Shown one piece after another: positions 38,303-40,739 of a stretch of DNA of 64,000 nucleotides. Under the pieces are notes generated by a model. That model did no database searches, had not been told where the DNA came from, and was given only the letters and a program-made list of their open reading frames with translations. A program made the position numbers and the translations under genes. Location: NCBI RefSeq assembly GCF_001189955.1, contig NZ_LFLT01000001.1, positions 1-64,000 on the forward strand, written 5' to 3'. Every line of letters starts with the position of its first letter. Position 1 is the stretch's first letter. This DNA is from Herbaspirillum chlorophenolicum. GTDB taxonomy: Bacteria; Pseudomonadota; Gammaproteobacteria; Burkholderiales; Burkholderiaceae_D.

Positions 38303-38959
38303 TCAGGCCGGGTCGGCCGCCAGCGGCCGCGCCATCCAGTTCTTGAGCATGGACAGCATCGCGCCATATGCCGGCAGGAAGAACACCAGGCTGATGATGA
38401 TCTTGAAACAGTAGTCGACCACCGCGATTTCCACCCAATGCTCGGCCATGAAGGCGTCGCTGCTGCGCCAGAAGGCGATCGAGAAGAAGGCCAGCGTATC
38501 GCTGGCGTTGCCGAACAGCATGGACACCGAAGGCGCCAGCCACCAGCGCCGGCTGGCGCGCAGGCGGTTGAATACATGCACGTCAAGGATCTGGCCCAGC
38601 GCATAAGCCATGAAACTGGCCGCCGCGATACGCGCCACGAACAGGTTGAAATGCGTCAGCGCGTCGAAGCCTTGCCACTGGCCCATATAGAACAGCGACG
38701 ACACCACATAGGAAACTAGCAACGCCGGCAACATCACCGCCAGGATGATGCGCCGGGCCAGCGGCGCGCCGAAGAAGCGCACCGTCAGGTCGGTCGCCAG
38801 GAAGATGAACGGAAAGCTGAATGCGCCCCAGGTGGTATGGAAGCCGAAGATAGACACCGGCAACTGCACCAGATAATTGCTGGAGGTAATCACCAGCAGA
38901 TGGAATAGCGAAAGCCAAGCCAGCACGGCCGTGTGCCGGCGCAGATCAATAGTTGTCAT
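38303..38959 (-). CDS. yhhQ: Queuosine precursor transporter (YhhQ, COG1738)
   Basis: The 218-residue membrane protein has six predicted helices and the COG1738 features FGFHTTWGAFSFPFIFLATDLTVRFFG, MAYALGQILDVHVFNRLR and LFGNASDTLAFFSIAFW. In E. coli YhhQ imports preQ0/preQ1 for queuosine synthesis. I chose ATG 38959: AAAAAGG lies 5-6 nt upstream, and the alternative ATG at 38995 falls inside the riboswitch stem described next. Regulation is predicted to be translational through a preQ1-I riboswitch. Divergent from hemN. Confidence 0.93.
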   Translation of the reverse strand: MTTIDLRRHTAVLAWLSLFHLLVITSSNYLVQLPVSIFGFHTTWGAFSFPFIFLATDLTVRFFGAPLARRIILAVMLPALLVSYVVSSLFYMGQWQGFDALTHFNLFVARIAAASFMAYALGQILDVHVFNRLRASRRWWLAPSVSMLFGNASDTLAFFSIAFWRSSDAFMAEHWVEIAVVDYCFKIIISLVFFLPAYGAMLSMLKNWMARPLAADPA

Positions 38960-38964
38960 ATGGA

Positions 38965-38997
38965 CCTTTTTGATGAATGGGGTTAGGGAACCCATGG
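38965..38997 (-). promoter_or_regulatory. preQ1-I riboswitch controlling yhhQ
   Basis: On the - strand the leader reads ATGGG (38995-38991), loop TTCCCTAAC, CCCAT (38981-38977), TCATC, then AAAAAGG (38971-38965) just before the start codon. ATGGG/CCCAT is P1, the A-run is the minor-groove tail, and CCT of the loop can pair with AGG to form P2, hiding the ribosome site. The layout and the TAACCCCA segment closely match the small translational preQ1-I riboswitches. The cytosine after TAA would pair with preQ1. Confidence 0.82.
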
Positions 38998-39004
38998 ACG
39001 AAAA

Positions 39005-39025
39005 TCCCGCGCATGCAGCGCGGGA
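39005..39025 (-). promoter_or_regulatory. Leader hairpin upstream of the yhhQ riboswitch
   Basis: TCCCGCGC / GCGCGGGA with a 5-nt loop; on the - strand it is followed by TTTTCG. It could be an upstream attenuator or simple leader structure. Confidence 0.45.
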
Positions 39026-39138
39026 CGTGAAGAGTCGCTACTTTACCATACCGTACCGATTTCACGGATTGCGCCCCCGAAGAGAGAAGCGGAGCGGCAT
39101 CGGCCCACCGGACACCACATTGGCGGCCAGCGGCCATT

Positions 39139-39287: not shown

Positions 39288-40739
39288 ATGCAAGTCGCCC
39301 ATCCGTCATTGACGCCCGATTCCGCCAGCCTGGCAGGCATGAACAAGAGCGTGCTGCGCAAGATGGACCAGCGCGGCCCGCGCTACACGTCCTATCCGAC
39401 CGCCGACCGCTTCTCCGGCGACTTTGCCGTTGCCGATTACCTGCACGCGGTGTCCGACCGCCGTAGCATGGGCGCCTGGCGCACGCTGTCGTTGTACCTG
39501 CACATCCCGTTCTGCGACACCATCTGCTACTACTGCGCCTGCAACAAGATCGTCACCAAGAACCGTGCCAAGGCCGCGCTCTACCTGAGTTACCTCAAGC
39601 GCGAGATCAGCATGCAGGGCTCGCTGTTCTCCGGCATGAACCAGGTCGAACAGTTGCATTTCGGCGGCGGCACGCCGACCTACCTGTCGGATGCGCAGAT
39701 GGGCGACCTGATGGCGCATATCCGCAAGTGCTTCACGCTGGCGCCGGACAATGTGGGCGAATACTCCATCGAGATTGACCCGCGCACCGTGTCGGTCGAG
39801 CGCGTGCAGTCGCTGCGCGCGCAGGGCTTCAACCGCATCAGCCTGGGCGTGCAGGATTTCGACCCCGACGTGCAGCGCGCCGTCAACCGCGTGCAATCCG
39901 AGCAGCAGACGCTGGAGATCATCCGCGCCGCGCGCGAGGCCGGCTTCCGCTCGGTCAGCATCGACCTGATCTACGGCCTGCCGAAGCAGAACGTGATGTC
40001 GATGTCGCGCACGCTGGCCAAGGTGGTCGCTGCCAGCCCTGACCGCATCGCCGTCTACAACTATGCCCACATGCCGCAGCTGTTCAAGACGCAAAGGCAG
40101 ATCAATGAAGACGACCTGCCCAGCGCCGACAGCAAGCTCGACATGCTGTCGCTGTGCATCCGCCAGCTGACCGCGGCTGGTTACGTCTACATCGGCATGG
40201 ACCATTTCGCCAAGCCTACCGACGACCTCGCCATCGCCCAGCGCCAGGGCCGCCTGCACCGCAACTTCCAGGGGTATTCAACCCACTCGGAAACCGACCT
40301 GGTGGCTTGCGGCGTCTCTGCCATCAGCGCCGTGGGCGGCAGCTACAGCCAGAATGAAAAGACCCTGGACGGCTACTACGCGCATCTGGAGAACGCCACG
40401 CTGCCGATCGCCCGCGGCATCCAGCTCGGTATGGACGATGTGCTGCGGCGCCTGATCATCCAGCGCCTGATGTGCAATTTCGAGTTGTCGATCAGCTCGC
40501 TGGAGATCGCCTATCCGATCGTCTTCCGTGAATACTTCGCGGCCGAGATGGAGAAGCTGCAGGCGCTGGAAGCGGATGGCCTGATCAGGATCGAGCCGGA
40601 ATGGATCACGGTCGAACCCAAGGGGCGTCTCCTGATCCGCAACATCTGCATGGTGTTCGACCGCTATCTGGCGCAGGACCGCGAGAGGGCGGCGCGCGGA
40701 CAGAAGGATGCGCCGCAGCGTTATTCGCAGACGGTCTGA
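39288..40739 (+). CDS. hemN: Oxygen-independent coproporphyrinogen III oxidase
   Basis: The 483-residue radical-SAM enzyme decarboxylates coproporphyrinogen III in haem synthesis without oxygen. The [4Fe-4S] motif HIPFCDTICYYCACNK gives C76, C80, C83 and the extra C85 characteristic of true HemN. PRYTSYPTADRF near the N-terminus, FGGGTPTYLSDAQM, GVQDFDPDVQRAVNR, YGLPKQ and GMDHFAKPTDDLA are all present. Start 39288 follows AGGAG. It is probably co-regulated with the cbb3 genes by FNR. The next gene begins 19 nt downstream. Confidence 0.96.
   Translation: MQVAHPSLTPDSASLAGMNKSVLRKMDQRGPRYTSYPTADRFSGDFAVADYLHAVSDRRSMGAWRTLSLYLHIPFCDTICYYCACNKIVTKNRAKAALYLSYLKREISMQGSLFSGMNQVEQLHFGGGTPTYLSDAQMGDLMAHIRKCFTLAPDNVGEYSIEIDPRTVSVERVQSLRAQGFNRISLGVQDFDPDVQRAVNRVQSEQQTLEIIRAAREAGFRSVSIDLIYGLPKQNVMSMSRTLAKVVAASPDRIAVYNYAHMPQLFKTQRQINEDDLPSADSKLDMLSLCIRQLTAAGYVYIGMDHFAKPTDDLAIAQRQGRLHRNFQGYSTHSETDLVACGVSAISAVGGSYSQNEKTLDGYYAHLENATLPIARGIQLGMDDVLRRLIIQRLMCNFELSISSLEIAYPIVFREYFAAEMEKLQALEADGLIRIEPEWITVEPKGRLLIRNICMVFDRYLAQDRERAARGQKDAPQRYSQTV

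Follow-up and report, generated by a model that had tools for sequence, protein, structure and literature searches.

Evidence for a translational type III preQ1-I riboswitch ahead of yhhQ in Herbaspirillum

Introduction

How does a bacterium that can make its own queuosine precursors restrain the transporter that would import them? The question is raised by a short leader in a 64,000-nucleotide stretch of the Herbaspirillum chlorophenolicum genome (contig NZ_LFLT01000001.1, hereafter the window), where a sequence-only reading had proposed a preQ1-I riboswitch whose pseudoknot contains the ribosome site, upstream of yhhQ. Here we ask whether this leader belongs to a known riboswitch type and, if so, what it would do. 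For comparison we used excerpts of a study of the Escherichia coli yhhQ riboswitch (PMC10622847) and of a review (PMC11625349), and all statements taken from these sources refer to the excerpts.

Results

The open reading frame at 38303..38959 (minus strand, as are the leader features below) encodes a protein of 218 amino acids. Its product matched the profiles NF008406 (365.5 bits, cut-off 252), TIGR00697 (216.3 bits) and Vut_1 (PF02592, 119.6 bits), and judged by these matches it is the queuosine-precursor transporter YhhQ, annotated for 7-cyano-/7-aminomethyl-7-deazaguanine. Among the matches listed, its best nine named relatives (L030-L038) come from Herbaspirillum and are 94 to 84% identical. 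Since queC, queF and tgt are all present in the same genome, import would come on top of synthesis, and it would make sense for preQ1 to restrain the importer.

Read on the minus strand, the leader begins 36 nt before the yhhQ start codon (AUG, 38959-38957) and has the order AUGGG-UUCCCUAAC-CCCAU-UCAUC-AAAAAGG-UCCAU-AUG. AUGGG (38991..38995) and CCCAU (38977..38981) are the two strands of the P1 helix, assigned from the sequence and from covariation of pairs 2, 4 and 5 (see below). They enclose the pyrimidine-rich loop UUCCCUAAC (38982..38990), placed by aligning each position with the E. coli 36-mer (PMC10622847) and with the E. coli leaders L089 and L106. A variable linker, L3, of 5 nt (UCAUC, 38972..38976) leads to the A-run and Shine-Dalgarno sequence AAAAAGG (38965..38971, with AAAAA at 38971-38967 and GG at 38966-38965), which the spacer UCCAU sets 5 nt ahead of the AUG. 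The loop contains an anti-Shine-Dalgarno CCU (38987-38985) complementary to AGG 38967-38965, giving the potential P2 pairs A38967-U38985, G38966-C38986 and G38965-C38987. That is, the P1 strands, loop, A-run and CCT/AGG complementarity described near the yhhQ ATG by the sequence-only reading can all be read there.

The mapping to the E. coli RNA equates G4-G6 with 38993-38991, U7 and U8 with 38990-38989, C9-C11 with 38988-38986, U12 with 38985, C13 with A38984, A14 with A38983, C15, the preQ1 specificity base, with C38982, and A33, A34, G35 and G36 with 38968-38965. At the residues which PMC10622847 assigns to pocket, ceiling and P2, the window is identical to E. coli except for the change of C13 to A. 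Type III is recognised, according to the review, by a UU that follows P1, an AC where the specificity base lies, and AAGG (PMC11625349). All are present here: UU follows the P1 5' strand, AC stands at the specificity base in a small pyrimidine-rich loop, and a run of 4-5 A leads into an AAGG-type Shine-Dalgarno sequence whose AGG is complementary to the loop CCU. In addition, P1 has three G-C pairs on the pocket side (GGG 38993-38991 with CCC 38981-38979), and the element lies directly upstream of yhhQ (COG1738). The core GGGTTCCCTNNCCCC, allowing up to two mismatches, matched the window twice (once exactly, at the leader), against 1.78 matches expected.

Homology to proven members was established with a covariance model, R2, built from 24 Enterobacteriaceae leaders including that of E. 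coli (L106) and containing no Herbaspirillum rows. R2 matched the window at 38962-38997 (minus strand) with 37.2 bits (E 3.8e-7 over 64 kb); elsewhere it returned one 9-nt fragment (E 5.3), so that the leader is the sole significant match. The model also matched 17 of 17 other Herbaspirillum loci with a close YhhQ (L002-L018). A second model, R1, which includes the window's own row, found no second site anywhere in the genome at E up to 10.

The Rfam scan for preQ1-I that had been proposed along with the sequence-only reading gave no match: RF00522 (PreQ1, gathering threshold 39 bits) reported nothing in the window, the element or the genome. However, at E up to 10 it likewise missed L106 and L089, two yhhQ leaders from E. 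coli, the latter of which carries the exact 36-mer of PMC10622847 with the linker GGUUAAUC. Because these controls were equally missed, we take the silence of RF00522 as uninformative and not as a refutation. Other Rfam matches were weak and far under their cut-offs (anti-hemB, 15.8 bits with a cut-off of 49.5; OmrA-B; Esr41; ceN88); those of anti-hemB and OmrA-B align to a GC hairpin further upstream, not to the aptamer. When E. coli genomes were searched by blastn with the window leader, no match came up, because the shared piece is short.

Folding energy was uninformative as evidence for the element. The 43-nt element folded no better than chance (z 0.24 against shuffles), and the E. coli yhhQ element L106 gave z 1.32. 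The predicted minimum free energy hairpin of the window RNA is a nested GGGUU/AACCC with the loop CCCU, within 38995-38977. This hairpin would compete with P1 and is a possible ligand-free state; it can form with A at loop position 13, and it is not predicted for leaders with C13 (L106, L006).

Covariation was assessed in 35 leaders picked for diversity; five-C rows were read with an extra C in the loop, and the long-linker leaders L080, L116, L121, L163 and L164 were excluded. Since the search pattern allows one loop only and limits what P1 pairs 1-3 may be, only pairs 4-7 are independent of the choice of leaders. Pair 2 was GC in 33 leaders and AU in 2. Pair 4 occurred as UA (27), AU (4), CG (2) and UG (2), that is, paired in 35/35 against a shuffled mean of 26.3, and pair 5 was paired in 20/35 (shuffled mean 11.0); for either pair 0 of 2000 shuffles were as good, in a statistic that ignores the relatedness of the leaders. 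Pairs 6 and 7 were at chance (9/35 and 8/35), which indicates that compensation ends where P1 ends. All 23 distinct enteric rows pair throughout the P2 columns, with no change of base; because P2 never varies, its lack of covariation is neither support nor contradiction. Two UG cells in these columns were rejected as variation, being alignment slips in L086 and L102. Homologous leaders thus back the pairing of P1 through compensatory changes, with P2 invariant.

Within the genus, a close YhhQ matched along its full length (209-218 of 218 residues) is encoded by 18 of 34 Herbaspirillum genomes (our own and 33 others), and the element precedes the gene in 18/18. In one further genome (G014) YhhQ is diverged and matches as two separate pieces, and the core is absent from the locus fetched. 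Among the matches listed, 79 of 80 named loci showed the short-linker pattern, the exception being a Raoultella locus (L080) with the same P1 and loop and a 73-nt linker. Of 98 leaders examined, 97 matched (L080 failed the short-linker pattern), and the 56 distinct ones make up alignment A1; alignments A2 (27 rows) and A3 (24 rows) were chosen from the leaders at hand.

At the level of the order, YhhQ was found at E up to 1e-40 in 23 of 399 genomes. The type III core was present in five (L116, L117, L120, L121 and L122) of the 21 non-Herbaspirillum loci (L019, L110-L129), which places type III in two further families of the same order. Scanning 20 of the order's yhhQ loci (L110-L129) with RF00522 gave matches in 11, none of them a locus with the type III core. 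Judged from coordinates, the matched aptamer immediately precedes yhhQ in three of them (L119, L126 and L128); in the other eight (L110-L114, L118, L124 and L129) it lies about 500-800 nt ahead of the gene, perhaps before an operon partner. In the class (369 genomes), the core was present in 8 of 13 YhhQ loci other than our own. Together, the motif precedes yhhQ homologues of 54-64% identity in other families at 13 loci. R1 matched 7 of 399 order genomes, two of them falsely (G257 and G287): the match at L135 lies inside an 884-aa ORF, presumably for alanyl-tRNA synthetase, and L136 repeats that DNA almost unchanged. For three of the ten class matches other than our own (L142-L144, 369 genomes), tblastn found no YhhQ in the 3 kb fetched.

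Natural variants of the element fall at the loop and the linker. In 13 of 103 loci tallied, one more C stands where the loop meets P1: eight from Herbaspirillum (L006, L007, L008, L010, L011, L012, L013 and L015) together with L116, L121, L149, L157 and L158, the last three being the same sites as L137, L139 and L140. G replaces A14 in 7 of these 13 five-C loci (L006, L007, L008, L011, L013, L116 and L121) and in none of the four-C loci; a five-C, G14 leader of this kind belongs to the H. huttiense-type species. Linkers of 35-73 nt between P1 and AAAAAGG occur in L116 and L121 (family f49), L080 (Raoultella) and L163 and L164 (Klebsiella). Compared with shuffles, folding of the long linkers gave z -3.7 (L116), -2.0 (L121) and -2.5 (L080), and about 0 for both Klebsiella loci. 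R2 scored L116 and L121 at 12.3 bits (E 1.4) and L080 at 29.4 bits.

Further upstream, folding predicts a 5' GC-rich hairpin (39004..39026, minus strand) between the riboswitch and a -10-like TAAAGT (39045-39040, minus strand) that we assigned by eye, with a putative transcript start near 39033; a promoter scan returned no sigma-70-like site in this region. The position of the hairpin is kept in L002-L018, and its sequence varies by species. Over the 18 Herbaspirillum loci its mean folding z was -1.93, with 13/18 below -1, compared to 0.06 in 54 upstream control windows and -0.32 in 102 windows taken at random.

On its leader side, yhhQ adjoins a divergent hemN-like ORF (ATG at 39288), and between the two lies a perfect TTGATATGCATCAA (39152-39139), which by its consensus we take to be an FNR-like box. 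The placement of yhhQ next to an FNR-regulated hemN, on which the sequence-only reading had remarked, is thus true of the window as far as adjacency and box are concerned, but it is not conserved: hemN is adjacent in 2 of 18 Herbaspirillum loci, about 1.3 kb upstream in 2 and without a match within the 1.5 kb flank in 14. Within 500 nt, TTGATATGCATCAA recurs in L002 and in none of the other 16 Herbaspirillum loci. We therefore rejected a hemN/FNR linkage as a conserved feature and regard the neighbouring hemN as incidental.

In a tree of 75 YhhQ rows, the 18 Herbaspirillum rows form one clade (100/100). Together with 23 Enterobacteriaceae rows they form a larger clade (100/99), apart from 21 other Burkholderiales rows; the order within it is weak, with an enteric Siccibacter row placed beside Herbaspirillum (92/48). 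Other genera of the family yielded no close YhhQ at E up to 1e-40 in the genomes drawn, and a distant match of 27% in one of them (G035). The surroundings of the gene differ: tusA and dcrB flank yhhQ in two Klebsiella records, whereas the window has it divergent from hemN.

Discussion

The R2 match, the covariation in P1 and the likeness to the E. coli RNA bear out the proposal of a preQ1-I riboswitch with its ribosome site in the pseudoknot. Judged from sequence, the leader is very probably (about 95%) a translational preQ1-I riboswitch of type III that controls yhhQ. It is a true and well-supported member of a known riboswitch type and ordinary in kind. What we read directly is its anatomy, its homology to the E. 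coli RNA, the compensatory changes in P1 and the repeated placement before yhhQ; ligand, pocket, affinity and direction of regulation we infer by analogy.

On this analogy, the 3' tail AAAAAGG would be free as long as preQ1 is lacking, and ribosomes would start at AUG 38959. Once preQ1 accumulates, either made in the cell through QueC and QueF or imported, it would be read by C38982 and the first A of the Shine-Dalgarno sequence. The tail would then dock along P1 and AGG would pair with the loop CCU (P2), forming an H-type pseudoknot that hides the ribosome site, so that no more importer is made, a feedback repression of salvage.

Several other explanations have to be weighed. Conservation of the stretch could reflect an N-terminal peptide if yhhQ started at ATG 38995 within P1 (MGSLTPFIKKVH-MTT...). 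This ATG is in frame (230-aa ORF, 38303-38995), its spacing is kept in 10 of 18 Herbaspirillum loci, and GGGA (39008-39005) stands 9 nt ahead of it. However, one extra C breaks the frame in the other 8 loci, and for this reason we reject the coding N-terminus and give it next to no chance. Moreover, an ATG in P1 occurs in only 2 of 40 distinct enteric leaders (L081 and L105), each followed by an in-frame stop, GGGA sits in the stem of the 5' hairpin while AAAAAGG stands 5 nt before 38959, and the changes in P1 are compensatory for the helix. It is similarly hard to credit that a conserved ribosome site and hairpin act without preQ1, be it as a protein or sRNA target or as a plain element setting the translation rate. 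Simple folding does leave the Shine-Dalgarno sequence unpaired in the 43-nt element, but the ligand-contact positions reported for E. coli (PMC10622847) are kept, among them the specificity C together with UU and AC, and the motif recurs before diverged yhhQ homologues in other families.

Two readings would keep a regulatory RNA and change its signal or its level of action, and both are unlikely. The switch could sense preQ0, since YhhQ prefers to import preQ0, earlier in-line probing suggested a possible preQ0 preference, and the window carries A, not C, at a loop position where a backbone oxygen is a likely determinant of specificity (PMC10622847). Yet the E. coli type III RNA strongly prefers preQ1, and the contact named is made by the backbone, not the base: C13 touches preQ1 via its phosphate (PMC10622847). 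Control could instead be transcriptional if the GC hairpin at 39026-39004 and the UUUU behind it were an intrinsic terminator; the hairpin is stable, a short T-run follows, and hairpins at this place fold better than shuffles genus-wide. Against this, the hairpin lies 5' of the aptamer, so that the ligand could not obviously switch it, a terminator scan did not list it, and the T-run is absent in several species (for example L016, L017 and L018). We thus retain translational control by preQ1 as the reading of this leader.

The grouping of Herbaspirillum YhhQ with Enterobacteriaceae suggests that gene and switch were acquired jointly. Joint horizontal transfer of yhhQ and its leader, in one direction or the other, is the simplest reading of a limited Enterobacterales sample. 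In a fuller scenario, to which we give somewhat less than an even chance, Herbaspirillum received yhhQ with its type III switch from an enterobacterial lineage into new surroundings and later modified it by adding the GC hairpin and, in part of the genus, the extra C and in some cases G in place of A14, a proposed gatekeeper; C-insertion and G14 would recur in a distant family of the order together with a linker hairpin. If true, the form with C-insertion, G14 and linker hairpin would be a distinct sub-architecture of type III.

What follows from a type III switch at this locus is a prediction that Herbaspirillum regulates the salvage of queuosine precursors by translational feedback. For preQ1 selectivity, the pocket variants found in nature offer test cases. 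As RF00522 overlooks type III at two E. coli yhhQ leaders, surveys based on it probably undercount preQ1 regulation in Pseudomonadota.

Comparison with known preQ1-I systems

Neisseria is a betaproteobacterium. The sequence-only reading had held a betaproteobacterial example to be of note; this holds for the subtype only, because preQ1-I is already known from Neisseria as type I (PMC11625349). The class I type I riboswitches of Neisseria gonorrhoeae and Haemophilus influenzae likewise use an H-type pseudoknot that senses preQ1, but they bind two preQ1 cooperatively, occlude the Shine-Dalgarno sequence indirectly and carry UC before the P1 3' strand, where the window has AC (PMC11625349). By anatomy, Rfam PreQ1 (RF00522) describes the same aptamer class, yet the model reports neither the window site nor L106 and L089.

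For type III, one passage of PMC10622847 gives a range "almost exclusively" in gammaproteobacteria and another gives proteobacteria, and the review gives Pseudomonadota (PMC11625349). Set against the narrower statement, our results add Herbaspirillum and two further families of its order to the range of the type. A literature search returned no Herbaspirillum preQ1 riboswitch; a 2014 survey lay outside this search, and its tables may hold a betaproteobacterial example.

The closest counterpart is the class I type III riboswitch of E. coli yhhQ, a 36-mer whose co-crystal was obtained from a shortened 30-mer (PMC10622847). Both stand in the same place before the same gene and share the A5GG tail, a P2 of CCU and AGG, a P1 with GGG/CCC and a 9-nt pyrimidine-rich loop (UUCCCUNAC in E. 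coli). They differ at a single loop position, 13, which is C in E. coli and A (A38984) in the window, in the outer part of P1 (UUGGG/CCCAA versus AUGGG/CCCAU) and in the linker (8 nt versus 5 nt) (PMC10622847). Unlike the E. coli element, the Herbaspirillum leader has an additional GC hairpin upstream and resides in a betaproteobacterial host.
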